Of a stretch of DNA of 64,000 nucleotides, positions 44,231-62,847 are shown one piece after another. Every line of letters begins with the position of its first letter. Position 1 is the stretch's first letter. The notes under the pieces were generated by a model that was given only the letters and a program-made list of their open reading frames with translations, was not told where the DNA came from and searched no databases. The translations under genes were made by a program, and so were the position numbers. The stretch is from Aminobacter carboxidus. GTDB taxonomy: Bacteria > Pseudomonadota > Alphaproteobacteria > Rhizobiales > Rhizobiaceae. The stretch covers positions 806,001-870,000 of the forward strand of contig NZ_JACZEP010000001.1 of NCBI RefSeq assembly GCF_014863355.1, given 5' to 3'.

Positions 44231-44242
44231 ATTGTGCACAAT
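44231..44242. promoter_or_regulatory. GntR/FCD-type operator, site 1
   Basis: ATTGTGCACAAT, a perfect 12-bp palindrome, 42 bases before the racemase remnant. It fits the TNGTNNNACNA/TTGT-NN-ACAA pattern of FadR-type GntR regulators and the ATTGT-NN-ACAAT motif recurring in this region. Confidence 0.7.
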
Positions 44243-44496
44243 GCGTATTCACATTCGAACGGGAGTGTTCGCTTCCGTATCCGTGTCGATGACTGCGTTC
44301 CGCTCCGTTGCGACATGGACAGGCTCCGAAATTCAGGCGATTTTAGGCCAAGTCCCAGCGTGAGCCTGAAGGCTTCCAATCCTTCGCACTTCGTTCATCC
44401 GCCTCATTGGCGTGAGCTGGCACCCCTTCCAAGTGGCTGCCGCACTGATAGTTCGCTCACGAAACTTCATTTCAAAAAATACGATATTGACGAAAG

Positions 44497-44508
44497 ATTG
44501 TATACATG
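44497..44508. promoter_or_regulatory. GntR/FCD-type operator, weaker site 2
   Basis: ATTGT-AT-ACATG has a perfect TGTATACA core and matches the motif at 8 of the 10 arm positions. It lies about 93 bases before the NikA-like start, a suitable promoter position. Confidence 0.45.
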
Positions 44509-44600
44509 CCTAGAATGATATGTCTATACAAGTGAGCGCCAATTTCCGTTGCGGAAGTTTCAAGGCGCCAGGGAACGACAGCAAAGAGAGGAGCTACCCA

Positions 44601-46178
44601 ATGACACTGAACAGGCGTTCATTTTTGCAGGTCTCGTCCGCGGCCGTAGGGCTGGTCATGGCCGAGGCCGCATTCGCCAGGATCGCCTATGCCGAGGGCG
44701 CAGCAGGCACGCTCCGCGTCGCGATTGCCAAGCCTGCGGGCAATCTCGATCCACAGAGCCACTACGCCATCTGGGCGATCCAGGACCTGATGTTCGAGCC
44801 GCTGGTCAAGTACGGCAAGGGCGGTCAGATCGAGCCCTGCCTTGCGACCGACTGGAAGATCGAGGATGGCGGCAAGACCCTTCATCTCACGCTTCGGCAG
44901 GGCGTAACCTTCCAGGACGGCACGGTGTTCGATGCCGCGTCGTGCAAGTGGAATCTCGATCGCTGGCTGGGCAAGGAACAGTTCAGCTGGATGAATTGCT
45001 CCAAGTACTTCGACTCCCTTGATGTGGTCGACGACTATCACGTCACTCTCCATTTCAAGGAGCCAGTCCTCGCGCTCATGCAGGAGCTCTCCTACACTCG
45101 CCCCGTCCGCTTCCTGAGCCCGAAGTCTGTCGGCGCCGACGGCAAATTCGGCGAACCGGTCGGTACCGGGCCATGGCGCCAGGTCAGTGCCGACGACACC
45201 CAGAGTGTGTTTGAGCACCACGAAGGCTATTGGGGCGAGATGCCGTCTTATGAACGGCTCGAAGCCAAGGTCATCCCGGACGCGCGGTCGCGGGTTGCGG
45301 CACTGCGCGCCGGCGAGATCGACCTGATCGGCGGTTTCTGGATCGCGCCGTTGACCCCGGAGGAGGGCAAGCAACTCGAGGCGGCAGGCTTCAACGTCGC
45401 CATCGACCCGGGCAACGTCTCACTGGTGATGGCCTTCAACCCCGACCGTGCGGAGGCGCTGAAGGACCAGCAGGTTCGCAAGGCAATCAGCATCGGCGTC
45501 GACCGGGCGGCCATTTCCCAGGCTCTCTACCACGGCTATGCGAAGCCCGCCGGCAACCTGTTTTCGTCGGCGCTGCCTTATGCAGGCAAGCAGCACGACG
45601 CTCCTTTACGCGACGTGGCTGCTGCTTCGGCGCTGCTGGAAAAGGCGGGTTGGACGGGCAGTCCCATCCGCTCCAAGGATGGCAAGTCGCTGACGCTCGA
45701 GATGGTCGTCAGCCCTGATGCTATTCCCGGCTCTCGCGTGATCGCCGAGGTGATCCAGTCCGAGATGAAGGAGATCGGCATCGACCTCGTCGTTCGTTCC
45801 GTCGACCATGCCTCCAAGCACACCGACATGCTCGAGAAGAAATACGATCTCGGCTTCTTCCTGACCTATGGCGCTCCCTATGATCCTTTCGGATCTGTTG
45901 TGGCACTCTGCCTGTCGACCTTCAAGAACGACGTCGAAGGCAAGCTGGTCACTGACGCTGCCAATCTGGACCCGCTGATCAATGCGGCGACGGCGGCGAG
46001 CGGGGATCAGATCGAACCGACGATCCAGAAGGTCTACGACTGGCTCTATGACAACGACGCGATCGCGCCGCTGGTCTACGTTCCCAGCATCTGGGCGCAT
46101 TCCAAGCGTGTCCAGGGCTTCACCAGCCCGGTCACCGAATACGACATGCCGTACGAAAAAATCGTCCTGGCCGACTAA
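44601..46178 (+). CDS. NikA-like PepT-family substrate-binding protein
   Basis: A 525-residue receptor with a twin-arginine signal (LNRRSFLQVSSAAVGLVMAE). It resembles NikA more than DppA: GNLDPQSHYAIWAIQDLMFE, ELSYTRPVRFLSPKS (the RPxRF segment of NikA), IGTGPW-like VGTGPWRQVS, LTYGAPYDPFGSV, and the C-terminal TEYDMPYEKIV. NikA binds nickel through a small organic chelator; an organic ligand is equally possible here. GAGAGGAG precedes the ATG at 44601. First gene of a complete five-gene importer. Confidence 0.85.
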   Translation: MTLNRRSFLQVSSAAVGLVMAEAAFARIAYAEGAAGTLRVAIAKPAGNLDPQSHYAIWAIQDLMFEPLVKYGKGGQIEPCLATDWKIEDGGKTLHLTLRQGVTFQDGTVFDAASCKWNLDRWLGKEQFSWMNCSKYFDSLDVVDDYHVTLHFKEPVLALMQELSYTRPVRFLSPKSVGADGKFGEPVGTGPWRQVSADDTQSVFEHHEGYWGEMPSYERLEAKVIPDARSRVAALRAGEIDLIGGFWIAPLTPEEGKQLEAAGFNVAIDPGNVSLVMAFNPDRAEALKDQQVRKAISIGVDRAAISQALYHGYAKPAGNLFSSALPYAGKQHDAPLRDVAAASALLEKAGWTGSPIRSKDGKSLTLEMVVSPDAIPGSRVIAEVIQSEMKEIGIDLVVRSVDHASKHTDMLEKKYDLGFFLTYGAPYDPFGSVVALCLSTFKNDVEGKLVTDAANLDPLINAATAASGDQIEPTIQKVYDWLYDNDAIAPLVYVPSIWAHSKRVQGFTSPVTEYDMPYEKIVLAD

Positions 46179-46189
46179 GGGAGGGTGCT

Positions 46190-47125
46190 TTGATCCACTT
46201 CATCAGCAAGCGGCTGAAGCATTCCCTGGTGCTGTTGTTTCTGGCTTCCGTGGTCTGCTTCACGCTCGTCGTCTCGGCCCCGGGCAACGTCGCGGTTCTG
46301 ATTGCCGAACTGCGCGGCGCGGTTGCCGTCCCGGGATACGTCGCTCAGGTCGCCGAAGAGATAGGACTGAACAAGCCACTGCTGATGCGCTACGTGGATT
46401 GGCTTGGTGATGCCGTTACAGGAGATTTCGGCATCTCCTACAGGACGGGCCAGGCGGTCAGTGCGGACCTGCCACAGCGCATGATGGTCACCGGGACACT
46501 TATCGCGGGCAGCGCTTTGATTGCGACCCTGCTCAGCCTGCTTCTCGGCTTCCTCGGTGCCTTCTGGCCCTACAAACTGCCAGACCGCGTTTCGCGCGGT
46601 CTGGCGCTCATCGGGGCGTCGACACCGACTTTCTTCGTCGGTGCGCTGATGATCTACGGCTTCTCCGTTACCTTTCAGCTGTTCCCGTCCTTCGGGTTCA
46701 ACGGCCCAATCAGCTGGGTGCTGCCATGGCTGACCGTTGCGGTCTTGCCGGCAGCCGTGCTCAGCCGTGTCGTGCGTGTCGGACTGGAGGAGGCCATGAC
46801 CAGCCCCTACGTGCTGACAGCCAAAAGCAAGGGACTGGGGCGCACCGCCATCCTGTTCCGCGAAGCGCTGCCAAACATCACGCCTGTCTTTATCAATGCG
46901 CTTGGCACCCAGGTGGGATTGATGACGGCCACGGGCATCATCGTCGAGCCGCTCTTCGCCTGGCAGGGTGTTGGCGACTACTTCCTCGCCGGCGTGCGCT
47001 TCCGCGACTTCATGGTCGTGCAGGCATGCCTGCTGATCTTCCTCACCTTCTTCATCGTGGTGAACCTCGTCGTCGATCTAGCGGTCCTGATGACCGATCC
47101 CCGCATCCGGCGCCAATGGAGCTGA
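46190..47125 (+). CDS. PepT-family ABC permease (NikB/DppB-like)
   Basis: A 311-residue membrane subunit starting at TTG (46190), with GGGAGG five bases before. N-terminal IHFISKRLKHSLVLLFLASV is the typical first helix; AEEIGLNKPLLMRYVDWLGD and GDFGISYRTGQAVSADLPQR are the DppB-like periplasmic signature. The coupling loop reads YVLTAKSKGLGRTAILFREA. It is 11 bases after the receptor gene. TTG may moderate expression relative to the receptor. Confidence 0.92.
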   Translation: MIHFISKRLKHSLVLLFLASVVCFTLVVSAPGNVAVLIAELRGAVAVPGYVAQVAEEIGLNKPLLMRYVDWLGDAVTGDFGISYRTGQAVSADLPQRMMVTGTLIAGSALIATLLSLLLGFLGAFWPYKLPDRVSRGLALIGASTPTFFVGALMIYGFSVTFQLFPSFGFNGPISWVLPWLTVAVLPAAVLSRVVRVGLEEAMTSPYVLTAKSKGLGRTAILFREALPNITPVFINALGTQVGLMTATGIIVEPLFAWQGVGDYFLAGVRFRDFMVVQACLLIFLTFFIVVNLVVDLAVLMTDPRIRRQWS

Positions 47126-47127
47126 TC

Positions 47128-48024
47128 ATGGACAAACTCAATCCACTTTTCGCCCGACTGAACAAGTTCCCCCGCGCGGCGCTGATCGTCATCTGCCTGT
47201 TCGTTGCCCTAGGCACCTTTGCCCCCTGGCTCGCCCCACAGGACCCTAGCGCGCAGAATCTGCTGGAGGGAAGTGCCGGGCCAAGTGCCGCCCACTGGCT
47301 CGGCACCGACCATCTCGGGCGCGATACCCTCAGTCGCCTGATCATTGCCGCCAACACCTCGCTGGTCAGCGTCGGTTCGGTCCTCATCATTGCGATGACG
47401 ATCGGCATCCTGATGGGCACGATCGCCGGCTATCACCGTGGCTGGGTCGATGATCTGCTGATGCGTGTCGTTGACGTCGGCCTGTCGGTCCCCAGCCTGA
47501 TTGTTGCGCTGGCGGTCATTGGTATTGTCGGCCCCGGCTACTGGACCATGGTGCTGGCACTTGCGCTTGCCTGGTGGCCGATGAGCGGTCGCATCAGCCG
47601 GGCGGTTGCGGTGAGCATCATGAGCAAGCCGCATATCGAGGCCCTGCGTGTGCTTGGCGCCAGCCCCTGGCGCATCTATTTCGGCCATCTGCTGCCCGGC
47701 ACCATCGGCGCGGTCATGGTCTATGCGACGGCAGATGCCGGCACGGCCGCGCTTGCCGTCGCGACGCTCAGCTTCCTTGGCCTGGGCATCCAGCCGCCGA
47801 CACCGGAATGGGGGCAGATGCTTGTCGACGCGCTGCCTTATCTCGAGTCCGATCCGCGACAGGTCATCCTGCCTGGCCTGGCCCTGACGGCGGCGGTCAT
47901 TGGCTTCAACACGCTCGGCGAAGCTATCGCGCTCAATCGCATCCCCAAACCATTGACGCGCCGCATGCTGGCCATACGGCGGATCGAAGTTGCCGGCTGG
48001 GGCAAGGAGAATTCCGATGCATGA
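47128..48024 (+). CDS. PepT-family ABC permease (NikC/DppC-like)
   Basis: A 298-residue subunit. MDKLNPLFARLNKFPRAALI leads to helix 1; AHWLGTDHLGRDTLSRLIIA is the OppC-type N-terminal signature. The coupling loop is HIEALRVLGASPWRIYFGHL, followed by GIQPPTPEWGQML. The ATG at 47128 has GGAG six bases before it; an ATG at 47116 is in frame but overlaps the preceding gene more. Pairs with the NikB-like subunit. Confidence 0.92.
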   Translation: MDKLNPLFARLNKFPRAALIVICLFVALGTFAPWLAPQDPSAQNLLEGSAGPSAAHWLGTDHLGRDTLSRLIIAANTSLVSVGSVLIIAMTIGILMGTIAGYHRGWVDDLLMRVVDVGLSVPSLIVALAVIGIVGPGYWTMVLALALAWWPMSGRISRAVAVSIMSKPHIEALRVLGASPWRIYFGHLLPGTIGAVMVYATADAGTAALAVATLSFLGLGIQPPTPEWGQMLVDALPYLESDPRQVILPGLALTAAVIGFNTLGEAIALNRIPKPLTRRMLAIRRIEVAGWGKENSDA

Positions 48025-49012
48025 CGAACCGCTTCTGAACGTCAGCAATCTGACTGTCGATCTGCTGACGGCCAAATCCGCCATCCGTCCTGTAGACGGG
48101 GTCAGCTACACCGTACGCCAGGGCGAGTGCCTTGCCATCGTCGGCGAAAGCGGCAGCGGCAAGACCGTGATGAATTTCGCTCCTCTCGGTCTCATGCCGA
48201 CGGGCGTGACGACGAGCCTGTCCGGGTCGGTGCGCTTTGGCGGGCGTGAGCTGATCGGACTGCCGGAACAGGAAGTCCGCAAGATACGCGGCAAGTCCAT
48301 CGGCTTCATCTTCCAGGATCCGATGAGCGCCCTCAATCCGGTGCGGCGCATCGGTCGCCAGATTGCCGAGATGGCGGAGCTTCACCTCGACATGACACCG
48401 CGTGCGGCAGAGGCGCGCGCGCTGGAACTCGTCAAGCTCGTCGGCATCTCCGATCCGGCCGCCCGGCTGCGCCAATATCCTCACGAGCTGTCGGGTGGCC
48501 TCAGGCAACGCATCGTCATTGCCACCGCGCTGGCGGGCGAACCCAAGCTCCTGATCGCCGACGAGCCGACGACCGCTCTCGACGTGACGGTTCAGGCCCA
48601 GATCCTGCGCCTGCTCAAGGACCTGCAGCGCCGGCTCAACATGGCCATGGTGCTGATCACTCACGACATGGGCGTGGTCGCAGGCGCTGCCGACAACATC
48701 GTCGTCATGTATGCGGCACGGGCAGCAGAACGCGGGCCGGTGGACAAGGTCCTGGTCAAGCCTCGCCACCCGTACACGCGAGGCCTTATCAATGCGATTC
48801 CGAAACGGGAGGACCCGATCGGCTCGCAGTTCCGTGGACTGCCTGGCATTCCACCGACGCTCGGAGCTCCGTTCAAGGGTTGCGCCTTTGCGCCGCGCTG
48901 CGACTTCTCGGTTCCCACATGCACGGCCAGCCGGCCTCCCTTGGTGCCTTCGGCGGATGGTTCGGTTTTTGTCGCTTGTCCCGTCGTCAACGAAGGAAGG
49001 GCAGCAGCATGA
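48017..49012 (+). CDS. PepT-family ABC ATPase (NikD/DppD-like)
   Basis: A 331-residue ATPase. Walker A GESGSGKTVM, Q-loop FIFQDPMSALNP, signature LSGGLRQRIVIATAL, Walker B LLIADEP, switch THDMGVV and the C-terminal cysteine domain (GCAFAPRCDFSVPTC). The ATG at 48017 overlaps the preceding stop by 8 bases; the longer frame is not supported. Its length suits a Dpp-type rather than the ~254-residue E. coli NikD subunit. Confidence 0.92.
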   Translation: MHDEPLLNVSNLTVDLLTAKSAIRPVDGVSYTVRQGECLAIVGESGSGKTVMNFAPLGLMPTGVTTSLSGSVRFGGRELIGLPEQEVRKIRGKSIGFIFQDPMSALNPVRRIGRQIAEMAELHLDMTPRAAEARALELVKLVGISDPAARLRQYPHELSGGLRQRIVIATALAGEPKLLIADEPTTALDVTVQAQILRLLKDLQRRLNMAMVLITHDMGVVAGAADNIVVMYAARAAERGPVDKVLVKPRHPYTRGLINAIPKREDPIGSQFRGLPGIPPTLGAPFKGCAFAPRCDFSVPTCTASRPPLVPSADGSVFVACPVVNEGRAAA

Positions 49013-50046
49013 CGCACAGACCCGTTCTCAAAGTCGAAAATCTGCAAACCAGGTTCAAGAGCGTCCAGCGCGGCAAGTTTGTGCATGCGGTCGACGACGT
49101 TTCCATCGAACTCTATCCGGGTGAAATCGTTGGCTTGGTCGGCGAGTCCGGCTGTGGCAAGTCGACGCTCGGGCGCACGATCGTCGGGCTCGAGAAAGCA
49201 ACATCCGGGCGGGTGCTGCTCGATGGTGTCGACCTCAGCACGCTTTCAGGCGGAGCACTCCGCGACAGCCGTCGCGCTTTGCAATACGTGTTCCAGGATC
49301 CCTATTCGTCGCTCAACGATCGCCAGACGGTCGGGGAGGCCCTTGACGAAGCCCTCCAGATTGATGGGATCAGATCCCGGACCGACCGCGACCGCCGCAC
49401 CAAGGAGCTTCTCGACCAGGTCGGTTTGGCCGATGTAGTCAAGGATCGCCATACGCGCGAGCTCTCCGGTGGCCAACGCCAGCGTGTTGCCATTGCGCGT
49501 TCACTTGCGGTCAATCCACGGGTGTTGATCTGCGACGAGCCGGTCAGCGCGCTGGACCTTTCGATCCGTGCCCAGGTGATGAACCTGTTCCTGCGATTGC
49601 AGAAGGATTTGGGTGTGGCCTGCCTGTTCATTGCCCACGACCTCGAACTCGTCAGGCAGGCCGCCTCGCGCGTCTATGTCATGTATCTCGGCAAGATCGT
49701 CGAGCATGGACCGTCGCAGGAACTCTACGACCATCCCAGCCATCCATACTCGCAGATGTTGCTCGCCTCGGTGCCCGAGGCTGACCCCATCGCCGAGAGA
49801 CAGCGCAAGGTCCCGCTGATGGTGGGGGAGGTGCCGAGCCCGACCAATCCGCCGTCCGGCTGCAGGTTCCGCACCCGCTGCCCGATGGTGGTCGACGACT
49901 GCAAGCAGCAGGTGCCGCCTGCCTTCAAGCTGTCCCCTGGACACGATGCGGCTTGCGTGTTTGCCAAGGATCTGCACCGGGGCAAGCGGTCGGCCCTGCT
50001 CGAGGCCGAGGTTGCGGCAACACGAGTTGCTGCCTTGGCTTCCTGA
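49009..50046 (+). CDS. PepT-family ABC ATPase (NikE/DppF-like)
   Basis: A 345-residue ATPase with Walker [15 protein letters not shown]-loop YVFQDPYSSLNDRQTV, signature LSGGQRQRVAIARSL, Walker B LICDEPVSALDLS and switch AHD. The C-terminal domain keeps the cysteines (PSGCRFRTRCPMVVDDC). Starts in an ATGA overlap with the previous ATPase. The nucleotide-binding part has an unusual QRGK insertion near residue 18 (RFKSVQRGKFVHAVDDV), common in DppF groups. Last gene of this operon, followed by a hairpin. Confidence 0.92.
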   Translation: MTHRPVLKVENLQTRFKSVQRGKFVHAVDDVSIELYPGEIVGLVGESGCGKSTLGRTIVGLEKATSGRVLLDGVDLSTLSGGALRDSRRALQYVFQDPYSSLNDRQTVGEALDEALQIDGIRSRTDRDRRTKELLDQVGLADVVKDRHTRELSGGQRQRVAIARSLAVNPRVLICDEPVSALDLSIRAQVMNLFLRLQKDLGVACLFIAHDLELVRQAASRVYVMYLGKIVEHGPSQELYDHPSHPYSQMLLASVPEADPIAERQRKVPLMVGEVPSPTNPPSGCRFRTRCPMVVDDCKQQVPPAFKLSPGHDAACVFAKDLHRGKRSALLEAEVAATRVAALAS

Positions 50047-50483: not shown

Positions 50484-50507
50484 ATTGTCGACAATATGGT
50501 TGACAAG
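50484..50507. promoter_or_regulatory. Tandem GntR/FCD-type operators, site 3
   Basis: ATTGTCGACAAT (50484-50495) is a perfect palindrome; ATGGTTGACAAG (50496-50507) follows directly and matches ATTGT-NN-ACAAT at 8 of 10 arm positions. Centres are 12 bp apart, close to one helical turn, as expected for cooperative dimers. They lie about 200 bases upstream of the receptor gene. Confidence 0.75.
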
Positions 50508-50709: not shown

Positions 50710-52269
50710 ATGCTGAGGAAACTGACCCTCGCGGCCATCGTGGCTGCGGGTTTTTCGACGCCCGGCCTTGCGGAGACCCTCAAATGGGGTTCTTCGCGCG
50801 ACATCTACTCGCTCGATCCCTATTCATATGGCGACAGCTACACGCTGTCTTTCCTCAACCACGTTTATGAAGGCCTTGTCCGCTACGACGCCAATCTGGA
50901 GATCGAGCCGGCGCTGGCGACGTCCTGGGAGACCGTGTCAGACACGGTCTGGCGATTTCATCTGCGCGAAGGCGTAAAATTCCACAACGGCGCGGATTTC
51001 ACCGCGGATGACGTGATCGCTTCGCTTACCCGCGTCAGCGATCCGGTTTCGCCGCTGCGAGGCAACCTCCCGGCCTACAAGGGCGCCAAGAAGGTCGACG
51101 ATCACACTGTCGACATCGAGCTGGTCGGCCCCTATCCGCTGCTGCTCAACGACCTGACGAACATTCACGTCTTCGACCTGACCTGGCTGACCGACAACAA
51201 GTCGCTGAAGCCGACCGATGTCGGCGCCAAGGTCGAGGGATATGCAACCTACAACGCCAACGGAACCGGCGCCTTCAAGGTGGAAAGCCGGGTTCCAGAC
51301 AGCAAGACCGTTCTGGTGAAAAACCCCGGCTGGTGGGACGCATCGAAATCCAACATCGACCGCATCGAATTCACGCCGATCACCTCGGCGGCGACCCGCG
51401 TTGCAGCGCTCCTGTCCGGCGAGATCAACTTCACCGAAAACGCGCCGTCCCAGGACCTGCCGCGCCTCGTCGCGCAGCCGGATCTGAAGGTGATGGAGCG
51501 TACCGACCTGCGCACGATCATGGTCGGCTTCAACCGCAAGCCGAAGCTGGCGAATGGCGCCGACAACAAGTTCAACGACCTGCGCGTGCGCCAGGCCTTT
51601 GCCCACGCTCTGGACAGCGAACTGGTCCAGAAGCGCATCATGCGCGGCAAATCGCGGACTGCAGGCGCGATCATCGCACCTGAGATCCCAGGTTATGTCG
51701 AGGCATTGGATTCGGTGCTTCCCTTTGATCCGGATCTGTCCAAGAAGCTGCTGGCCGAAGCCGGCGCCAGCGATCTTCCGTTCACGCTGGTCTGCACCAA
51801 TGACGCCTATGTAAACGAAGAGGAGCTGTGCCAGGGCCTGGTCAATATGCTGACCCGCGCTGGATTCAAGCCGCAGCTCGACATCGCCCCGGCCGCGGCG
51901 CAGACCCCCAAGCGCGCCGGTGGCCTGGCCGACGTCTATCTGATCGGCTGGGCGAACGAGCCGATGCTCGACAGCTATTCCATCCTGCTGCAGATGATAA
52001 AGACGAAGACCGACAAGGCCGGCGTCTTCAACTGGGGTGGCTGGACCTACCCGGAGATCGACAAGCTCATCGAGCAGGCGTCGACAGAGATGGACAGGAC
52101 GAAGCGTCTCGAGCTGCAGACCAAGGCGCTGCAGATGGCGAAAGACGACCTCATCATGCTGCCACTGCACCAGCAGCCAATGGCCTGGGTCATGAGCAAC
52201 AAGATCGATGGGATCACGCAGCTTGCCGACAACAAGCCGCGCCACTGGCTGACACATTTCGCGCAGTAA
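50710..52269 (+). CDS. PepT-family substrate-binding protein (SBP_bac_5)
   Basis: A 519-residue receptor with a Sec signal (MLRKLTLAAIVAAGFSTPGL, cut near LAET). Family segments: RDIYSLDPYSYGDSYTLSFL, HVYEGLVRYDANLEIEPALA, and ADFTADDVIASLTRVSDPVS. The partial gene at 62892 encodes a close paralogue sharing DIYSLDP, LSFLNH and LLSGE landmarks at the same positions. Ligand unknown; the same operon encodes two amidohydrolases, suggesting a cyclic amide or amidine. Under the tandem GntR-type sites. Confidence 0.92.
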   Translation: MLRKLTLAAIVAAGFSTPGLAETLKWGSSRDIYSLDPYSYGDSYTLSFLNHVYEGLVRYDANLEIEPALATSWETVSDTVWRFHLREGVKFHNGADFTADDVIASLTRVSDPVSPLRGNLPAYKGAKKVDDHTVDIELVGPYPLLLNDLTNIHVFDLTWLTDNKSLKPTDVGAKVEGYATYNANGTGAFKVESRVPDSKTVLVKNPGWWDASKSNIDRIEFTPITSAATRVAALLSGEINFTENAPSQDLPRLVAQPDLKVMERTDLRTIMVGFNRKPKLANGADNKFNDLRVRQAFAHALDSELVQKRIMRGKSRTAGAIIAPEIPGYVEALDSVLPFDPDLSKKLLAEAGASDLPFTLVCTNDAYVNEEELCQGLVNMLTRAGFKPQLDIAPAAAQTPKRAGGLADVYLIGWANEPMLDSYSILLQMIKTKTDKAGVFNWGGWTYPEIDKLIEQASTEMDRTKRLELQTKALQMAKDDLIMLPLHQQPMAWVMSNKIDGITQLADNKPRHWLTHFAQ

Positions 52270-52329
52270 ACATCCACATGGAGCCGGCGCGGCAGGCGCT
52301 CCGGCTCCATCCACCCTGCGAGGCTCCAC

Positions 52330-53298: not shown

Positions 53299-53314
53299 CC
53301 ACAAGGGCGTCTCG

Positions 53315-54265: not shown

Positions 54266-54270
54266 GCGTG

Positions 54271-55464
54271 ATGACCAACCTGTTGCTCCGCAACGTGCGC
54301 CCCCATGGCGGTGCGAACTCCGATCTGCTGATACGCGACGGGCGGATCGCCGGCATCGGCCGTTTCGAGGCGGACCCCGGCATGCCGGTCGAGGACGGCA
54401 AGGGTGCTATCGCCATTCCGGGCCTGATCGACGCGCATACCCATCTCGACAAGACCACCTGGGGCATGCCCTGGCACGAGAACAACCGCCGTGCAGTGCT
54501 GCGCGAGCGCATCGACTTCGAGCGCGAGAACCGCATCGAGATCGGCATCGACCCGCACCGCCAGTCGATGCGCCACGCGATCGGCCTTGCCGCTCACGGC
54601 GCGACGCATATCCGCAGCCATGTCGACATCGATCCGGTCCACAAGTTGGCTCTCGTCGACGGCATCATGGAGACTCGCGAGAAGCTGAAGGGCGTCATCG
54701 ACATTGAGATCGTCGCCTTCCCGCAGTCGGGCTTGATGGTCATGCCGGGCACGCTGGAACTGCTCGACGAAGCGCTTAGCCAGGGCTGCGAGGTTCTCGG
54801 CGGCATCGACCCCTGCGGCATCGACCGCGATCCCAAGGGGCAGCTCGACGCCATCTTCGCGCTTGCGCTGAAGCACCAGAAGCCGATCGACATCCATCTG
54901 CACGAGGCGGGCGACCTCGGCGCCTTCACCATGGAACTGATGTTCGAGCGCATCCGCGCCAATGGCATGCAAGGCAAGGTCGCGATCAGCCACGCCTTCG
55001 CGCTCGGCATGAACGACTACCTCCGCGTCGGCCAGTTGATCGAACAGATCGCCGAACTCGACGTCGCGATCCTGACGACCGGTGCGCCGTCGGCGACTGT
55101 GCCGTCGATCATGCGCCTCAAGCAGGCCGGCGTGCGCGTCGGTGCCGGTTGCGACGGCATTCGTGACACCTGGGGGCCATGGGGCCAGCCCGACATGCTC
55201 GACCGCGCCAAGGTGGTTGGCATGAAGAACGGCCTGCGCTCGGACATCGAACTGGCCCACGTGCTGCACGTCGTTTCGCAAGGCGGGGCGGATGTTATGC
55301 GCATCGACGGTTACGGCCTCGCCGAAGGCTGCAATGCAGATCTCACGCTGCTGACGGGCGAGACGCTGGCCCATGCGGTCGTCGACGTCGCGCCACGTCC
55401 GCTGGTCATCAAAGGCGGCCGCGTTACCGCGCGCAACGGCCAGGCCACGGTGGAAATGCCATGA
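54271..55464 (+). CDS. Cytosine deaminase-like amidohydrolase (CodA type)
   Basis: A 397-residue metallohydrolase with the complete ligand set: PGLIDAHTHLDKTTWGMPWH (HxH), IRSHVDIDPVHKLAL, PIDIHLHEAGDLGAF, ISHAFALGM and GAGCDGIRDTWGPWG with the catalytic Asp. The CodA-like HLDK and CDGIRDxW motifs suggest deamination or hydrolysis of a pyrimidine, creatinine or other cyclic amidine. ATG at 54271 preferred over an adjacent GTG at 54268. It is embedded between permease and ATPase genes of one importer and overlaps the next hydrolase gene in an ATGA. Confidence 0.9.
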   Translation: MTNLLLRNVRPHGGANSDLLIRDGRIAGIGRFEADPGMPVEDGKGAIAIPGLIDAHTHLDKTTWGMPWHENNRRAVLRERIDFERENRIEIGIDPHRQSMRHAIGLAAHGATHIRSHVDIDPVHKLALVDGIMETREKLKGVIDIEIVAFPQSGLMVMPGTLELLDEALSQGCEVLGGIDPCGIDRDPKGQLDAIFALALKHQKPIDIHLHEAGDLGAFTMELMFERIRANGMQGKVAISHAFALGMNDYLRVGQLIEQIAELDVAILTTGAPSATVPSIMRLKQAGVRVGAGCDGIRDTWGPWGQPDMLDRAKVVGMKNGLRSDIELAHVLHVVSQGGADVMRIDGYGLAEGCNADLTLLTGETLAHAVVDVAPRPLVIKGGRVTARNGQATVEMP

Positions 55465-56957
55465 CACGACAGGTTCTCGACACACTCGAACTCGGCAAGC
55501 GTCCCGACGGGCGGACGCTGATCACCGCAGCCTGGGTGCTCGGTCATCGCGATGGCGGGCATAGGCTGGTTCCAAACGGCCAGGTCGCCATCGAAGACGG
55601 CGAGGTGGTCTTTGTCGGCACTGACTTCACTGGGGAGGTCGCTCGCCGGATCGATTTCGGCAATGCGCTGGTCAGCCCCGGCTTCATCGATCTCGACGCG
55701 CTCTCGGATCTCGACACCACCATTCTCGGCATCGACCATCATCCCGGTTGGGCCAAGGGTCGGGTGTGGCCGCGTCACTATGTTGAGGCCGGGCCCTACG
55801 AGATGTACTCGCAGGAAGAACTGGCGTTCCAGAAGCGCTTTGCCTTTGGCCAGTTGCTGCTGAACGGCATCACCACGGCGGCGCCCATTGCCTCGCTGTT
55901 TTATCGCGAGTGGGGCGAAACGGTCGCCGAGTTTGATGCTGCGGCGGATGCGGCCGGGGACCTTGGCCTGCGCGTCTATCTCAGCCCGGCGTATCGCGCC
56001 GGCGGCATGGTGCTTGAGGCGCCGGGCCGGATGGAAGCTGTGTTCGACGAGAAGCGCGGTCTCGATGGCTTGCGCGATGCGGTCGACTATATCGGCCTTC
56101 AGACCGGTCGCCATGGCGACCTTGTGCGCGGCCTGCTGGTGCCGGATCGCGTCGAGACCTGCACGGAAGCGCTGCTGCGCCAGACGCAGGCCGCGGCCGA
56201 CGAGCTCGGCTGCAAGATCCGCCTGCACATGGCGCAGGGCGCCATGGAGGTCGAAACCGTACGCAAGCTGCATGGCTCGACGGCTCCTGTTTGGCTGGCG
56301 CGCGCCGGCCTGCTCAGCGACAGGCTGATCGCGCCGCACGCCACCAACGCCACCGAGGAAGACCTCGGGCTCTATGCTCAGAACGGTGTGTCGATCGTTC
56401 ATTGCCCGCTGGTCTCGGCCCGCGGCGGCAGCACACTCAACTCGTTCTCGAAATGCAAGGAGCGCGGCATCAACATCGCGATGGGCACTGATACGACGCC
56501 TGCCGACATGCTGATGAACCTGCTCGTTGGCCTCATCACCTGCCGCATCAACGATCAGGCCCCCGATCGCGTTCGCAGCGCCGACCTGTTCGATGCGGCA
56601 ACGCTTGGCGGCGCCAAGGCACTCGGTCGCGACGACCTCGGGCGGCTTGCGCCGGGCGCACGCGCCGACATCGCAGTCTTCGGACTGGACGATGCGGTCA
56701 TGGCCCCGTCGATCGATCCGATCACCACGCTGGTAACAGGCGGTTCGGGCAAGGTCACGCAGGCCGTGTTTGTCGACGGGCGCATGTCGATGCGCTTCGG
56801 CGAGGTCGCCGGCATCGACATGAAGGCCGCACGGCAACGCGCCCAGCGCCAGTTCGACGGCCTCATCGCAAAGTATCCCGAACGCAGCTGGGATAACCCA
56901 CCTGTTTCGGAGATTTTTCCGCCAAGCTATCCGATCGAGGATAAACCCAATGGCTGA
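55461..56957 (+). CDS. Amidohydrolase-family protein lacking the HxH metal motif
   Basis: A 498-residue ATZ/TRZ-like protein. The position of the usual HxH metal motif (PGFxxxHxH) reads SPGFIDLDALSDLDTTILGI, with no histidine pair. The later ligands look present: RLHMAQGAMEVETV, LIAPHATNATEEDLGLYAQN, VSIVHCPLVSARGG and MGTDTTPADMLMN. The product could use a mononuclear site with different ligands or be a non-catalytic partner of the CodA-like enzyme, whose gene it overlaps in an ATGA. Ordinary length for the family. The next ATPase gene overlaps its end by 8 bases. Confidence 0.85.
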   Translation: MTRQVLDTLELGKRPDGRTLITAAWVLGHRDGGHRLVPNGQVAIEDGEVVFVGTDFTGEVARRIDFGNALVSPGFIDLDALSDLDTTILGIDHHPGWAKGRVWPRHYVEAGPYEMYSQEELAFQKRFAFGQLLLNGITTAAPIASLFYREWGETVAEFDAAADAAGDLGLRVYLSPAYRAGGMVLEAPGRMEAVFDEKRGLDGLRDAVDYIGLQTGRHGDLVRGLLVPDRVETCTEALLRQTQAAADELGCKIRLHMAQGAMEVETVRKLHGSTAPVWLARAGLLSDRLIAPHATNATEEDLGLYAQNGVSIVHCPLVSARGGSTLNSFSKCKERGINIAMGTDTTPADMLMNLLVGLITCRINDQAPDRVRSADLFDAATLGGAKALGRDDLGRLAPGARADIAVFGLDDAVMAPSIDPITTLVTGGSGKVTQAVFVDGRMSMRFGEVAGIDMKAARQRAQRQFDGLIAKYPERSWDNPPVSEIFPPSYPIEDKPNG

Positions 56958-57933
56958 AGTCGACAAACCAGTACTCGATGTCCGCAATCTCAGGGTTGAG
57001 TTCCCGGGTCGCCGGGGCGTGGCCACCGCGCTTTCCGACGTAAGCCTGTCGATCCGGCCGGGCGAGATCCTCGGGGTCGTCGGCGAATCCGGCGCCGGCA
57101 AGTCGATGACCGGGCTGGCGATCCAGGGCCTGCTCGAACAGCCGGGTCGTATCGCCGAAGGCGAGATCTGGCTCGCCGATCGTCGCATCGACAATCTCGA
57201 CGACCGCGCGATGGAGAAAATTCGTGGCCGCGAGATCGGCGCCATCTTTCAGGACCCGCTGACCTCGCTCAATCCGCTCTTCACAGTCGGCGCACAGCTG
57301 ACCGAAACGATACGGCAGCACCTCACATTGAAGAAGGGGGAGGCGAGGGCACGGGCAATCTCGCTGCTGAAAGACGTCGGCATTCCGTCGCCCGAGGAAC
57401 GCTTCGACCAGTATCCACATCAGTTCTCCGGCGGCATGCGCCAACGCGTGGTCATTGCCCTTGCACTCGCGGCCGCACCCAAGCTGATCATCGCCGACGA
57501 ACCCACCACCGCCCTCGACGTCTCGATCCAGGCCCAGATCACGTCATTGCTGCGTCGCCTGTGCAAGGAGAAGCGGACCGCGGTCATGCTGGTCACGCAC
57601 GACATGGGCGTCATTGCCGAGACTGCCGACCGGATTGCCGTGATGTATGCCGGTCGCCTTGTCGAGATCGGGCCCGTGGAGCAGGTGCTGAGCGCGCCCA
57701 CGCATCCCTACACACGAGGGCTCATGGCTTCCATTCCAGAGCTTGGCGCACGCGTCAAGCACCTGAACCAGATCGATGGCTCGATGCCGCGGCTCGATGC
57801 CGTTCCGGCCGGCTGCGCATTCAATCCGCGCTGCAAGGAGGCCGGGCCGCGTTGCCTGCGAGAGCGGCCGGGCCTGTTGCCGGTGGGCGCCGGCGCCAGC
57901 GCCTGCTGGCTGAATGCGGGAGGAACAGCATGA
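56950..57933 (+). CDS. PepT-family ABC ATPase (DppD-like)
   Basis: A 327-residue ATPase: Walker A GESGAGKSMTGLA, Q-loop IFQDPLTSLNP, signature [15 protein letters not shown], Walker [15 protein letters not shown], switch THDMGVI, C-terminal cysteines (AGCAFNPRCKEAGPRC). It overlaps the hydrolase gene at its start and the DppF-like gene at its end, so the operon from 50710 to 58907 is tightly coupled. Energises the permease pair at 52330-54265. Confidence 0.93.
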   Translation: MAEVDKPVLDVRNLRVEFPGRRGVATALSDVSLSIRPGEILGVVGESGAGKSMTGLAIQGLLEQPGRIAEGEIWLADRRIDNLDDRAMEKIRGREIGAIFQDPLTSLNPLFTVGAQLTETIRQHLTLKKGEARARAISLLKDVGIPSPEERFDQYPHQFSGGMRQRVVIALALAAAPKLIIADEPTTALDVSIQAQITSLLRRLCKEKRTAVMLVTHDMGVIAETADRIAVMYAGRLVEIGPVEQVLSAPTHPYTRGLMASIPELGARVKHLNQIDGSMPRLDAVPAGCAFNPRCKEAGPRCLRERPGLLPVGAGASACWLNAGGTA

Positions 57934-58907
57934 CCGCCATGACAGTACAGAAGACGCCGGCGCTCAGCGTCGACCGGCTCGTCAAGTCCTTCGACGTATC
58001 GGCGCCCTGGCTCAACCGGGTGGTCGAGCGCAAGCCGCGCCAGTATCTGCAGGCGGTCAGCGACATCAGCTTCGAGGTTCCACTGGGGGGCTGCCTCAGC
58101 CTTGTCGGCGAAAGCGGCTGCGGCAAGTCGACCGTCGCGCGCCTGGTAACCGGGCTCTACAGGGCTAATAGCGGCGAGATGCGCTTTGCGCTGGGCGCGG
58201 ATGGCAAGCCGCTATCGGCCCAGATGATCTTCCAGGATCCTTACGCCTCGCTCAATCCGCGTTGGCGCGTGAAGAACATCATCGCCGAGCCGCTGCGCGA
58301 GTTGAAGCTGCGGAACTCCGCTGCCGAGATCAACGAGCGGGTGGTGGAGCTTCTGAAGACCGTCGGCCTGTCGGCTTCAGACGGCGACAAGTTCCCGCAT
58401 GAGTTTTCCGGCGGGCAGCGGCAGCGAATCTCGATCGCGCGTGCCTTGGCAAGCGAGCCACGTTTCCTGGTGTGCGACGAGCCAACCTCGGCCCTGGATG
58501 TGTCGGTGCAGGCCCAGGTGCTCAATCTGATGCGGCGGTTGCAGGATGAATTCGGCCTGACCTATCTGTTCATCAGCCATGACATGAGCGTGGTCAGGCA
58601 CATGTCCGATCGCATTGCTGTCATGTATCTCGGCCGCATCGTCGAGGAAGGCGACACCGAGGATCTGTTCGCCAAGCCGCGCCATCCCTATACGCAACTG
58701 CTGCTGGAGACGATCCCGAACGTCAAGCATCCGCACCGGGATCGCATCGTTGCCGGTGGAGAGGTGCCGAGCCCGCTCAAGCCTCCGTCAGGCTGCCCGT
58801 TCCATCCAAGATGCCCGATCGCTACCGCGCGCTGTTCGGCCGAACTGCCGCCGATACGCACGCTGGCAGGCGGAACGCGTGTCGCCTGCCACCTTGTGGC
58901 CGAGTGA
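57930..58907 (+). CDS. PepT-family ABC ATPase (DppF-like)
   Basis: A 325-residue ATPase. After a long N-terminal lead (SFDVSAPWLNRVVERKPRQY) come Walker [15 protein letters not shown]-loop MIFQDPYASLNPRW, signature FSGGQRQRISIARAL, Walker B LVCDEPTSALDVS, switch SHDMSVV, and C-terminal cysteines (PSGCPFHPRCPIATARC). Starts in an ATGA overlap. The gene ends 19 bases from the 3' end of the GntR-type gene, with no obvious terminator between the convergent genes. Confidence 0.93.
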   Translation: MTAMTVQKTPALSVDRLVKSFDVSAPWLNRVVERKPRQYLQAVSDISFEVPLGGCLSLVGESGCGKSTVARLVTGLYRANSGEMRFALGADGKPLSAQMIFQDPYASLNPRWRVKNIIAEPLRELKLRNSAAEINERVVELLKTVGLSASDGDKFPHEFSGGQRQRISIARALASEPRFLVCDEPTSALDVSVQAQVLNLMRRLQDEFGLTYLFISHDMSVVRHMSDRIAVMYLGRIVEEGDTEDLFAKPRHPYTQLLLETIPNVKHPHRDRIVAGGEVPSPLKPPSGCPFHPRCPIATARCSAELPPIRTLAGGTRVACHLVAE

Positions 58908-58926: not shown

Positions 58927-59604
58927 CTATGCCAGGGCGGCCTTGAGGTCGTGCGACATGTCGCGGACTTCCCTAAGGTCCAGCTCGGCCTCCACATGAT
59001 CGAGATGATGTTGCATCAACCGCAAAGCCTTTTCGCCGTCGCCAGCGGAGATAGCCTCGACGATTTCGTCATGTTCGTCGGGCCCGCAGTTGAAGCGTGC
59101 TGTGTTGCGGTACACGGCGGTGATCAACGACGTGCGCGAGATCAGGTCGCGCATCATGCCGAAGAGGAAGTCCGAGCCGGAGAGCTCGGCGAGCAAGAGG
59201 TGGAAGCCGCCGGACAGTTTTATGATGTCGGTGGTCGCGTCATTCGCGTTCGCCACCCTCTCGCGGGCGACATGGCTGCGCAACCTGGAGACATCGGCCT
59301 TCGACGTCGACTTGCAGATGCGCTCGACGACGCAGCGCTCGACCGAGCGTCGCACGAAGAACACGTCGCGGGCCTCGTCGACGGAGGGCTGGCACACGTA
59401 AGCACCGCGATTTGGTATGATCGTCACAAGGCCTTCGCGCTCAAGCGCCGTCAGCGCCTGGCGAATGCGCGCGCGGCTGACGTCGAAGATTTCAGCGAGA
59501 TGGCCTTCCTTGAGCTGGACGCCCGGACGGAGCCGGCGCTCGGCAATCGAAAGCCATACCTTTTCGACAATCTGCTGCGTCGAAACGCTTGCTTGTTCGG
59601 TCAT
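58927..59604 (-). CDS. GntR-family regulator, FCD (FadR-type) subfamily
   Basis: A 225-residue regulator. The winged HTH occupies about residues 10-75 (RPGVQLKEGHLAEIFDVSRA, then RIRQALTALEREGLVTIIPN). The FCD all-helical effector domain follows (DVFFVRRSVERCVVERICKS, and DEHDEIVEAISAGDGEKALR with the metal-binding D/H set). Effectors in this subfamily are small carboxylates or amino acids. The ATG at 59604 follows AGGAGG by 9 bases. Divergent from the flavin reductase gene across a region with two ATTGT-NN-ACAAT-like sites, so autoregulation is likely; the same motif precedes the neighbouring operons. Confidence 0.92.
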   Translation of the reverse strand: MTEQASVSTQQIVEKVWLSIAERRLRPGVQLKEGHLAEIFDVSRARIRQALTALEREGLVTIIPNRGAYVCQPSVDEARDVFFVRRSVERCVVERICKSTSKADVSRLRSHVARERVANANDATTDIIKLSGGFHLLLAELSGSDFLFGMMRDLISRTSLITAVYRNTARFNCGPDEHDEIVEAISAGDGEKALRLMQHHLDHVEAELDLREVRDMSHDLKAALA

Positions 59605-59684
59605 GAAGCGATGCCTCCTACAAAGGCCGACATTCGTCATGGCCAACTAAAAGTCAACATTCCAATAAATTTTCCGAAACCAAT

Positions 59685-59718
59685 TTTGCCGACAATTTAG
59701 TTTAAAATTGTGTACCAA
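59685..59718. promoter_or_regulatory. GntR/FCD-type operators at the regulator's own promoter, site 4
   Basis: TTTGCCGACAAT (59685-59696) and ATTGTGTACCAA (59707-59718) each match ATTGT-NN-ACAAT at 8 of 10 arm positions; centres are 22 bp apart (two helical turns). They lie between the divergent GntR-type and flavin-reductase genes. Confidence 0.65.
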
Positions 59719-59741: not shown

Positions 59742-60377
59742 ATGGAGTTCGATTTCACCAAGCTGGAGATGGACGGCCGCTATCGCCTGCTGACCAATTT
59801 CATTGGTCCGCGTCCGATCGCGCTCGTCACCACCCGCTCGGCCACCGGGCACAGCAACGCAGCACCCATGAGCTTCTTCAACGTGTTCTCGCATGAACCG
59901 CCGATCGTGGTTCTCGGTATCCAGCCGCGCCTTTCCGGCGAGGACAAGGACACCATGGTCAATATCAGGCGTACCGGCGAGTTCGTGGTCAACATGGTCG
60001 ACATGGCGCTGTCTCAGCAGATGCTCGTCTGTGGCTTAGGCTTCGACAGCGATGTCGATGAGCTTGAGATGGCCGGGCTGCCCACCGCCAAGGGGGCACA
60101 GCTCGATGTCGAATACGTCACCAGTGCGCCGTGCGCCTTCGAATGTCGCGTTGAGCGGCTGATCGAGTACCCGCGTCGCGTGCTCGTGTTGGGCGAAGTG
60201 GTGCACATGCACGTCCGCCGCGATTGTCTCGACGAGGCCGGGCGCTACGTGAACCCTGAAGTTTATCAGCCGATCGCCCGACTTCATGCGGACAATTACA
60301 TCACCTCCGACCGCCAGTTCGTGCTCAAGGCGCCGGCGATGGCGGATGTGCTCAAGGCAAACCAAAGCGGCGAGTAG
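59742..60377 (+). CDS. Flavin reductase-like FMN-binding protein
   Basis: A 211-residue split-barrel protein of the flavin reductase domain family. GPRPIALVTTRSATGHSNAA followed by PMSFFNVFSHEPPIVVLGI is the FMN-binding signature; VNIRRTGEFVVNMVD and CAFECRVERLIEYP continue the barrel. Such proteins reduce FMN for a two-component monooxygenase or act alone on a substrate. No monooxygenase gene is present in the window. GAGAGGG precedes the ATG. 11 bases before the racemase gene, probably one transcript under the GntR-type sites. Confidence 0.85.
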   Translation: MEFDFTKLEMDGRYRLLTNFIGPRPIALVTTRSATGHSNAAPMSFFNVFSHEPPIVVLGIQPRLSGEDKDTMVNIRRTGEFVVNMVDMALSQQMLVCGLGFDSDVDELEMAGLPTAKGAQLDVEYVTSAPCAFECRVERLIEYPRRVLVLGEVVHMHVRRDCLDEAGRYVNPEVYQPIARLHADNYITSDRQFVLKAPAMADVLKANQSGE

Positions 60378-60388
60378 GATCCAGCAAA

Positions 60389-61135: not shown

Positions 61136-61148
61136 AGCCGGAAAAGAA

Positions 61149-61170
61149 AAAGGGGCCGTTGGGCCCCTTT
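61149..61170. terminator. Bidirectional terminator between racemase and amidohydrolase genes
   Basis: AAAGGGGCC (61149-61157) pairs with GGCCCCTTT (61162-61170) around GTTG. On the minus strand the stem is followed by a T-rich run (TTTTTCTTTT), a good signal for the amidohydrolase transcript; on the plus strand the T-run is short. Confidence 0.85.
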
Positions 61171-61223
61171 GCCTTGGTGCATGGTGGCGGCTTACTTCGG
61201 CAGGCCGCGATGGATGCGGGATT

Positions 61224-62696
61224 TTACATGGGCGGTGTCGGTGGCACCACAGGTTCCTCGAAGGTGCGATAGAGCTTGCCCCAGGCCGGGTCGTGCATAT
61301 GCGCTTGCAGGCCGGCCCGGTCGACAAGAGCCTGCGCTTCCCGCTCGCCGAAATCGAGTGCCTGTTCGACATCCGTCGTCAGCACCTTGCCGCCTTCCAT
61401 CAACACCTTGCCGTCGACGATGACGGTGTCCACGTCGCTGCCAAGCACCTGATGAACCAGCCGGTGAACGACCATCCAGTTGGGCGTCAGATGCGGCTGG
61501 CGCATGTTGATGATGGCGATGTCAGCCTTCTTGCCGATCTCGAGCGAGCCGATCTCGTGGTCCATGCCGAGCGCTCTCGCGGCGTCGATGGTGATCATCT
61601 CGAACATCTTGCCCGGCGGCAGCAGGTAGCGGTCGTGGTTGTGCAAGAGGTGTTGGGTGTATTGGGCAAGCCGCGCCATCTGGAACATGTCGAAGTGGCG
61701 GCTTGGCGAGACGCCGTCGGAGGTGACGGCCACCGGCACGCCCTTGGAAATCATGTCGAGGATCGGCGTCGAACGTCCGGGCGGTGCGTGAGTGACGAAG
61801 GTGCCGGTCTCGGCCAGGATATCGACTTCCTCATGCGAGATGCCCCAGCAGTGTTGTAAATGAACATCAGGGCCGAGGAGGGCGTTCTCCTTGTCCTGGA
61901 AGGCCATGCGGATCTGGCCGGCGAAGGCGTCGGAATGGATGCGCACGCCCCATTTGCGGGCCGTCTCGCGCACGCGGCGAGCCTGCATGCGGTCGTTGTC
62001 GGTGAGCTTGACCGCCCGGTCCGGCGTCGTCGTGTTGGAGGGATCAAGCGACGGCACGATGGTGAAAGGCGTCAGGAACACCTTGATGCGCCCTTCTGCA
62101 TCGCCGTTCAGTTCCTGAATGGTTGCCTCCGCTCCCTCGATCATTTCTTCGAACGAGACGTTGCGCCGTTCCGGCTTGCCGCCCTCCCAGCGTGTCACCG
62201 GATGTGGCCAGGGCAACCCTGCCGGGCCGACGCAGATGATTTCCCTCAGCCCTATCTGGCCATAGGCCTTGGCATGGTTGCTGGCGAAGACCGGATCGTC
62301 GCTCCTCGGCATGGATGAGATGATGCTGACACCCGTCGTGACGCCGGCACGCAGGCGCTCGAGGCCGGAAACCAGTCCGTCCGCATACCAGTAGTCGCGG
62401 GTGGTGTAGTGGTAGTAGGTCGGCGTGACGATCTGCATCCACATGGAGTTGGTGTCCGCTGCGATACTGCGGATCAGCACGTGGCCGGCGTGGCCATGCG
62501 CGTCGATGAGGCCCGGAATGATCAGCTTGCCGCGGCAGTCGACGACCTTCTTGTCTTGATGTCGGGGCTCAAGTTCGCTCGCCAAACCAATGTCGACAAT
62601 CTTGTCGCCCGATATGGCGACCGCGCCGTCCTCGATGATCCGCCGTTCGGCATCGACGGTGACGATGGTTCCATGGAGCAACAGCAGTTCGCTCAT
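61224..62696 (-). CDS. ATZ/TRZ-type amidohydrolase
   Basis: A 490-residue metallohydrolase of the cytosine-deaminase/chlorohydrolase group. HxH present in IPGLIDAHGHAGHVLIRSIA, then metal His in GVRIHSDAFAGQI and LQHCWGISHEEVDILAETGT, and the catalytic Asp in VAVTSDGVSPS. The C-terminal beta-sandwich ends in IVDGKVLMEGGKVLTTDVEQ. Hydrolyses or deaminates a ring or amine; substrate unknown. ATG at 62696 begins MSELLLLHGTIVTVDAERR; the longer frame overlaps the operator region. Divergent from the last receptor gene and under the shared GntR-type site. Confidence 0.9.
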   Translation of the reverse strand: MSELLLLHGTIVTVDAERRIIEDGAVAISGDKIVDIGLASELEPRHQDKKVVDCRGKLIIPGLIDAHGHAGHVLIRSIAADTNSMWMQIVTPTYYHYTTRDYWYADGLVSGLERLRAGVTTGVSIISSMPRSDDPVFASNHAKAYGQIGLREIICVGPAGLPWPHPVTRWEGGKPERRNVSFEEMIEGAEATIQELNGDAEGRIKVFLTPFTIVPSLDPSNTTTPDRAVKLTDNDRMQARRVRETARKWGVRIHSDAFAGQIRMAFQDKENALLGPDVHLQHCWGISHEEVDILAETGTFVTHAPPGRSTPILDMISKGVPVAVTSDGVSPSRHFDMFQMARLAQYTQHLLHNHDRYLLPPGKMFEMITIDAARALGMDHEIGSLEIGKKADIAIINMRQPHLTPNWMVVHRLVHQVLGSDVDTVIVDGKVLMEGGKVLTTDVEQALDFGEREAQALVDRAGLQAHMHDPAWGKLYRTFEEPVVPPTPPM

Positions 62697-62823
62697 GCGA
62701 TTTTGTCCATTCCAGTCAAGTGGTTGAGCCCAGATAGTGTCTTCCGAAGCGGTGAGCGTCCTGCGGCGGATAAGGACGCGCATACCAATTTTGCTACCGT
62801 TTTGGGTACTTTACGTCAACGAT

Positions 62824-62847
62824 ATTGTTGACAATGTCGTCGACCAT
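62824..62847. promoter_or_regulatory. GntR/FCD-type operator, site 5
   Basis: ATTGTTGACAAT (62824-62835) has perfect ATTGT/ACAAT arms; a weaker GTCGTCGACCAT follows at once (62836-62847), repeating the 12-bp tandem seen at 50484. Between the divergent amidohydrolase and receptor genes, 57-68 bases before the receptor start. Confidence 0.75.

Follow-up and report, generated by a model that had tools for sequence, protein, structure and literature searches.

A conserved ATTGT-N2-ACAAT palindrome as candidate operator of a GntR/FCD regulator in an import and amidohydrolase gene cluster of Aminobacter carboxidus

Results

The locus and its genes

A 64,000-nucleotide stretch of the Aminobacter carboxidus genome (hereafter the window) carries repeated copies of the palindrome ATTGT-NN-ACAAT in the control regions of a gene cluster for solute import and amide hydrolysis, and we propose that this palindrome is the operator of the transcriptional regulator encoded in the same cluster, GntR1. 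The gntR1 gene (58927..59604, minus strand) encodes 225 amino acids, with an N-terminal GntR winged helix-turn-helix domain (Pfam PF00392, 56.1 bits against a cut-off of 27) and a C-terminal FCD ligand domain (PF07729, 79.8 bits against 24.3). By these domain matches GntR1 is a member of the FadR (FCD) subfamily of the GntR superfamily, and the genome has 31 FCD matches in all, GntR1 included. Its recognition helix reads VSRARIRQ, and SRAR[IV]R is found in all 13 GntR1 proteins compared; it thus differs from SRTP, the common recognition helix of FCD proteins.

To the left of gntR1 lies a seven-gene operon on the plus strand (50710..58907). It begins with a substrate-binding protein (SBP1, 50710-52269), followed by two permeases (52330-53298 and 53315-54265), an amidohydrolase resembling AtzC and cytosine deaminase (54268-55464), a chlorohydrolase-family protein of the PRK06151 type (55464-56957) and the two ATPases (56950-57933 and 57930-58907) of an ATP-binding cassette (ABC) importer. 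Divergent from gntR1 are genes for a flavin reductase (59742-60377, plus strand) and an Asp/Glu/hydantoin racemase (60389-61135, plus strand). Beyond them a third amidohydrolase of the TRZ/ATZ type (amidohydrolase-3, 61224..62696, minus strand) is divergent from a second substrate-binding protein (SBP2, plus strand), which starts at 62892, is cut by the window edge at 64000 and continues to window-equivalent position 64460. A second PRK06151 chlorohydrolase-family gene follows SBP2 at window-equivalent 64576-66060. The initial annotation gave the regulated system a span of more than 20 kb; from the first box at 50484 to about 66060 we measure some 15.6 kb, of which the last 2 kb lie beyond the window edge.

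Comparison with solved structures gave N-isopropylammelide isopropylaminohydrolase (6nbo, 346 bits) as the nearest chain to the first amidohydrolase and atrazine chlorohydrolase (4v1x, 151 bits) as the nearest to the third. The racemase is closest to a putative hydantoin racemase (3qvj, 215 bits) and to allantoin racemase (5lfd, 158 bits), and 2-nitrobenzoate nitroreductase is the nearest to the flavin reductase; no solved structure matched the PRK06151 protein at E <=1e-30. The cluster probably imports and hydrolyses a small nitrogen compound, and a ring-shaped nitrogen compound or a cyclic amide, which fits the enzymes, is at most a fair guess for the substrate.

Orthologues of GntR1 (86-95% identity) are present in six of the nine other genomes of the genus. 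Among plasmid records, 1140 gave a match (985 of them with at least 80% cover), and the best 20 of these hold relatives of 75.6-79.6% identity from Rhizobium rhizoryzae, Sinorhizobium and Nitratireductor. We compared the clusters of 12 relatives, comprising all six genus orthologues and six of the best 20 plasmid records. The order of the permeases, the AtzC-like and PRK06151 amidohydrolases, the two ATPases, the regulator, the flavin reductase and the racemase is kept in all 12, although in S. medicae one ATPase could be matched over half its length only; amidohydrolase-3 is present in 11 of the 12 loci. SBP1 is more variable. It is found in the window's genome and in five of the 12 relatives, all of them plasmid clusters, whereas neither R. 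rhizoryzae nor any of the six genus relatives has it in the locus. The genus relatives (L047-L058) have lost SBP1 but kept the promoter and its boxes upstream of the permeases, and in one of them (G002) a stub of 23 C-terminal residues of SBP1 is left.

Boxes in the three control regions of the cluster

We defined three control regions, namely the gntR1/flavin reductase divergon (region a), the SBP1 promoter (region b) and the amidohydrolase-3/SBP2 divergon (region c). The 12 relatives supplied 35 such regions, 9,214 bases in all, within 428,044 bases of loci. For the six genus relatives region b was taken as the 600 bp before the permease gene; R. rhizoryzae, without SBP1, had its region b set by hand upstream of SBP2 and contributes no region c. 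All inverted repeats made of a five-base half-site (1,024 of them) with one of seven spacings, 7,168 words in total, were then counted per region within one mismatch. It can be seen that ATTGT with a spacer of 2 ranks first of the 7,168 words, being present within one mismatch in 31 of the 35 regions and exactly in 20, counts which overstate the evidence and are not probabilities because the relatives are not independent of one another. The next-ranked words occur in 25, 23 and 20 regions and are at least partly shifted readings of the same sequence. The four regions beyond the one-mismatch limit are all of type a and come from G002, G003, G004 and G006; their box a1 (see below) matches at 8/10 positions.

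The copies are also concentrated in these regions: 20 of the 22 exact copies in the relatives' loci lie inside them, as do 35 of the 56 copies within one mismatch. Six of the 21 one-mismatch copies outside have the same letters as the one-mismatch copy at 62589, within the amidohydrolase-3 coding sequence, and come from the six genus relatives. We rejected 62589 as an operator, as its position is coding and counterparts were seen in those six genus relatives only. When the genus group is aligned with the Sinorhizobium/Nitratireductor group, little matches beyond the boxes, TTGACA and, in the leader of gntR, a GTCAAC element. The comparison of upstream regions across orthologous clusters that had been suggested at the outset thus finds boxes persisting where the flanks mostly diverge, and the boxes are conserved together with GntR1 orthologues in the three control regions of the cluster.

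In region b, box b1 (ATTGTCGACAAT, 50484..50495) is an exact copy, with no more than one mismatch in 12/12 relatives. Box b2 (ATGGTTGACAAG, 50496..50507) follows 12 bp from b1 and contains a -35-like TTGACA at 50500-50505, with a weak -10-like TAGCTT at 50523-50528; TTGACA is found at the same offset in all 13 b promoters. Region c repeats this arrangement. Box c2 (ATTGTTGACAAT, 62824..62835) is exact, contains TTGACA at 62828-62833 and is followed by a weak -10-like GATGGT at 62851-62856, while 12 bp upstream of it lies a degenerate partner, box c1 (TACGTCAACGAT, 62812..62823), of which clearer copies are found in relatives, for example ATTGTCAACAAT in S. mexicanum. All 11 relatives with a region c have a box within one mismatch there, and 12/12 c promoters, including that of the window, have TTGACA. 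Taking regions b and c together, the second box contains TTGACA 16 bases after the start of the first in 25/25 promoters, those of the window included. The best -10-like hexamer 16-18 bp downstream of TTGACA matches on average at 3.4/6 positions, against 2.19/6 at random positions. The tandem pattern GTNNACAA-N4-GTTGACA, allowing one mismatch, occurs at six distinct places in 6.29 Mb, including promoters b and c and the promoter of a paralogous regulator described below.

The two boxes of region a are spaced differently. Box a1 (TTTGCCGACAAT, 59685..59696) matches at 8/10 positions in the window; in the plasmid-borne relatives it is exact in five of six and matches at 9 of 10 positions in the sixth. 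Box a2 (ATTGTGTACCAA, 59707..59718) lies 22 bp from a1, with the start of the flavin reductase gene 24 bp further on; the 22-bp spacing is kept in 13/13 gntR divergons. Closer to gntR1 is the element AAAGTCAACATT (59650..59661), which carries a -35-like TTGACT on the minus strand (59657-59652) and whose GTCAAC core is conserved in all 13 aligned a regions; it may be a gntR1 promoter element or a half-box.

Boxes in the relatives were listed as 12-mers matching at 7/10 positions or more and belonging to four allowed core types. The sequence at 62836 (GTCGTCGACCAT, 7/10) was considered as a downstream tandem of 62824 and rejected, since it is not among the boxes so listed. In the S. medicae and S. 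mexicanum plasmids a further box lies just 3' of the racemase gene (L061 ~16460-16471 and L063 ~16459-16470), exact in S. medicae, and no clear gene adjoining it was found in either. An Rfam scan of 43000-64000 returned nothing at gathering thresholds.

Frequency of the palindrome in the window and the genome

Three exact copies are found in the window, at 44231, 50484 and 62824, where 0.010-0.020 are expected by chance (Markov models of orders 0-3 fitted to the window). Four further copies (44497, 50496, 59685 and 59707) have two mismatches, matching at 8/10 positions. Every site coordinate in the initial annotation holds in our scan; its description of the copies as perfect or near-perfect is right for the three exact ones and generous for 59685 and 59707. 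Open reading frames (ORFs) called mechanically run across all three exact copies in the window and were taken as spurious.

Across the genome (6,287,532 bases) there are seven exact copies, all between likely genes, against one of the reversed control word, and 68 against 11 when one mismatch is allowed. The motif is therefore not equally frequent elsewhere, though it is not exclusive to the cluster. Using the rate outside the window, three exact copies in 64 kb have a clustering probability of 1.1e-5; the corresponding value of 2.8e-7 for three exact copies in an 18.6-kb span is post hoc, as that span was drawn around the sites. Four exact copies lie outside the window, one of them at the paralogous regulator. 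At another place (C15:42747-42781, L018 11747-11781) two boxes, AATGTATACAAT and ATTGTCGACAAT, lie 23 bp apart upstream of an Amidohydro_3 gene.

Proposed regulation by GntR1

From these observations we consider, with a probability of about 80%, that the palindrome is the operator of GntR1, through which the protein would mainly repress the three control regions of its own cluster. GntR1 would repress the SBP1/ABC/amidohydrolase operon, the flavin reductase-racemase operon and the divergent amidohydrolase-3 and SBP2(-chlorohydrolase-2) units, and it may also control its own gene, which is divergent from the flavin reductase-racemase operon. Each of the SBP1 and SBP2 promoters would hold two neighbouring dimers at a 12-bp spacing and, as the inner box coincides with the -35-like TTGACA, binding would exclude RNA polymerase; at the gntR1 divergon the two boxes 22 bp apart would be about two helical turns from one another. 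Repression would be released by a small-molecule inducer, probably of a carboxylate type, that is derived from or identical to the imported compound.

A number of points weigh against this proposal, in addition to the non-independence of the relatives. When two mismatches are allowed the window holds 16 copies against a chance mean of 9.95, a count that 3 of 100 shuffled sequences reach. Little of the signal remains at this level, so weak copies count as evidence through their conservation only, and we rejected two-mismatch counts as evidence by themselves because the window total is only mildly above chance. In the window the boxes of region a and box c1 are degenerate, and the -10-like hexamers of regions b and c match at 3/6 positions only. 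A promoter scan gives no promoter at the TTGACA of region b or region c and none in region a; the one promoter that it places in region b lies away from the TTGACA of box b2, and it lists none in region c. The pair in region a is off-centre, 81 bp from the gntR1 start against 24 bp from that of the flavin reductase, which makes autoregulation of gntR1 and common control of the two genes uncertain. Finally, the three exact sites outside the window other than that at the paralogue precede genes without an evident relation to the cluster, for an amidohydrolase, a GGDEF-EAL protein and a coenzyme A-transferase.

A paralogous regulator with the same recognition helix

A second FCD regulator, encoded at C1:215186-215875, is 50% identical to GntR1 and has the helix SRAR[IV]R in 8/8 orthologues. 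Its neighbours are genes for an amidohydrolase, an SBP_bac_5 protein, a permease and a flavin reductase (C1:206-226 kb). This paralogous system shares with the GntR1 cluster its type of regulator, these gene classes and similar boxes, and differs in gene order and in having a run of three boxes, spaced by 12 and 13 bp, in the region that separates the regulator gene from a divergent SBP_bac_5 gene (C1:215943-215976, L017 9943-9976). At least one box within one mismatch lies upstream of the paralogue in 8/8 genus loci.

That a regulator with the recognition helix of GntR1 has similar boxes also counts against our proposal, since with the same helix and similar boxes the binder, GntR1 or its paralogue, is not separable by sequence and cross-talk is possible. 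The paralogue might bind the operators of the GntR1 cluster as well as or instead of GntR1, so that the two systems would be cross-regulated. The identity of the proteins and their helices, and the boxes upstream of the paralogue, including the three-box run in the same genome, favour this. However, GntR1 occurs together with its boxes on plasmids of other genera, and part of the box spacing at the paralogue is 13 bp rather than 12 bp. We therefore regard binding by the paralogue as somewhat unlikely, though it is the alternative to be taken most seriously. In a more distant paralogue group (C31) all six loci have GTATAC boxes, and the helix of one member reads SRTIIRK.

The Nik-like operon

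To the left of the cluster is an operon encoding a NikA-like SBP and four more importer proteins (44520..50046, plus strand). NikA is the best NCBIfam match of this SBP, as in the NikABCDE nickel importer; however, its score of 312.1 bits is below the curated cut-off of 393. Matches to it at E <=1e-100 are found in five of 199 family genomes, this one included. The promoter region (44487..44531, plus strand) contains TTGACG at 44487, ATTGTATACATG at 44497, TAGAAT and TGTCTATACAA at 44521-44531, and is promoter-like in the scan. TTGACG, ATTG(T/C)ATACATG and TGTCTATACAA are conserved in all five aligned loci; as elements other than the ATTGT palindrome the window's copy keeps GTATAC and GTCTATAC. 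The ORF as called, starting at 44520, overlaps the conserved TGTCTATACAA, and relatives align from residue 21-28 on, so that the true start of the SBP is probably downstream.

Further upstream, the exact palindrome ATTGTGCACAAT (44231..44242), with AAAGTATACGGT beginning 12 bp before it, precedes by about 30-40 bp the remnant of a gene for an Asp/Glu-type racemase (43942-44198, minus strand), divergent to the Nik-like operon as is the intact gene in S. meliloti. The start (residues 3-23) and end (residues 192-256, in more than one frame) of the remnant match the S. meliloti pSymA racemase, the middle being missing, and its two ends match both the S. meliloti and the C31 racemases. We also noted that genes for an HlyD-type adaptor and a 1061-residue ORF (38564-43005, minus strand) adjoin the Nik-like operon; on S. 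meliloti pSymA a resistance-nodulation-division (RND) pump is encoded near the orthologous operon.

The initial annotation had placed this operon under the regulator at 58927-59604, together with a local uptake and hydrolysis system. As regards the cluster itself that view is upheld by the GntR/FCD family of the protein and by the conserved boxes of regions a, b and c; its extension to the Nik-like operon via 44231 and 44497 we consider unlikely. In its favour, 44231 is an exact palindrome some 15 kb from gntR1, and within the window there is no other match to three GntR queries. The GntR protein encoded beside the orthologous S. meliloti operon has no relative in this genome that is more than 38% identical, so that a takeover by GntR1 is conceivable. 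Two further observations run counter to our own demarcation. All four relatives' Nik-like promoters (L071-L075) have an AATG(T/C)C-N-ACAA(T/C)-like box just upstream of TTGACG (AATGTCGACAAT, AATGCCGACAAT, AATGCCAACAAT and AATGCCTACAAC), and three of these four loci carry ATTG-type palindromes farther upstream with AT, TG or similar centres. Control of the Nik-like operon by an FCD protein, whichever it may be, is thus likely in the relatives.

Against inclusion, the operon is absent from the cluster in 12/12 relatives' loci. Its orthologues on two annotated plasmids, of S. meliloti and of Ensifer, lie beside genes for other GntR proteins, flavin reductases and racemases; the two GntR proteins encoded there share 36-37% identity with GntR1 and 32% with one another. 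The window's copy has lost the upstream box and of the conserved elements beside TTGACG keeps only ATTG(T/C)ATACATG and TGTCTATACAA, and 44231 has no aligned counterpart in the relatives' Nik-like promoters in the five-locus alignment. None of the boxes listed for the relatives' control regions has the GC centre of 44231. GTATAC boxes go with FCD proteins having an SRT-type helix, and TGTCTATACAA has the HutC-type shape quoted in PMC4494728. Close copies of TGTCTATACAA recur at another operon (C27), 8 kb from a regulator with a UTRA domain, and we would assign this element to the HutC-type consensus. Its position just upstream of the remnant leads us to read 44231 as belonging to the lost racemase gene, and its assignment to GntR1 is doubtful. 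On balance, with no conserved linkage and with promoter elements of its own kept, we leave the Nik-like operon out of the GntR1 regulon and treat it as probably a separate unit.

Discussion

The mode of action proposed for GntR1 is repression, and operators over the -35 position are typical of repression. The inner box covers the -35-like TTGACA in 25/25 promoters, which speaks against the alternative that GntR1 activates these promoters; we think activation improbable, even with the weak -10 hexamers in the window and the precedent of CitO, an FCD protein reported to act as an activator (PMC4746285). Rather more speculative, and slightly less probable still, is a combination of readings in which the two SRAR sister regulators would recognise a common operator code, consisting of tandem boxes of which the inner is fused to the -35 element, and would jointly cross-regulate two paralogous import and hydrolysis systems for N-heterocycles, while the Nik-like operon, having lost its own box, would be in the course of being drawn in via 44231. 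Chance or shared ancestry without function, which the mildly raised window count at two mismatches might suggest, is a very improbable source of the copies given the first rank among 7,168 words and the conservation of the boxes where the rest of the intergenic DNA mostly fails to align.

The gene content of the cluster may be likened to that of the hpx allantoin regulon of Klebsiella, which likewise includes a GntR/FCD regulator (HpxS), a racemase (HpxA) and amidohydrolases. Points of difference are the peptide-type ABC importer found here and the likeness of two amidohydrolases to AtzC and AtzA.

The operator proposed for GntR1 fits what is described for FadR-subfamily proteins. According to PMC4494728, their operator is an A/T-rich palindrome with TKGT/ACMA and a spacer of 2 or 3 nucleotides, HpxS, HypR, MdcY, PrpR and UxuR being examples with a 2-nucleotide spacer, and ATTGT-N2-ACAAT, the putative GntR1 site of the three control regions, has this shape with a 2-nucleotide centre. 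Extra boxes adjoining the main palindrome are also described there for the subfamily (PMC4494728), as are divergons in which paired sites at constant distance lie near the middle of the intergenic region. Our cluster shares the extra boxes and the constant distance, which is 22 bp in 13/13 gntR1 divergons, yet its pair lies away from the middle.

A literature search of open-licence papers found no description of this regulon, which would exemplify an ordinary type of gene control that is already known. For this catabolic cluster we can now propose an operator together with its likely regulator and the member genes; the cluster is one that occurs in several genera of the Rhizobiales and on symbiotic plasmids. 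A reporter fused to the SBP1 promoter could reveal the inducer and hence point to the substrate. The sister regulators and the contrasting paralogues, with centres such as CG, CA, TG and CT for the SRAR helix and GTATAC for the SRT helix, would be suited to tests of how FCD proteins choose their sites.

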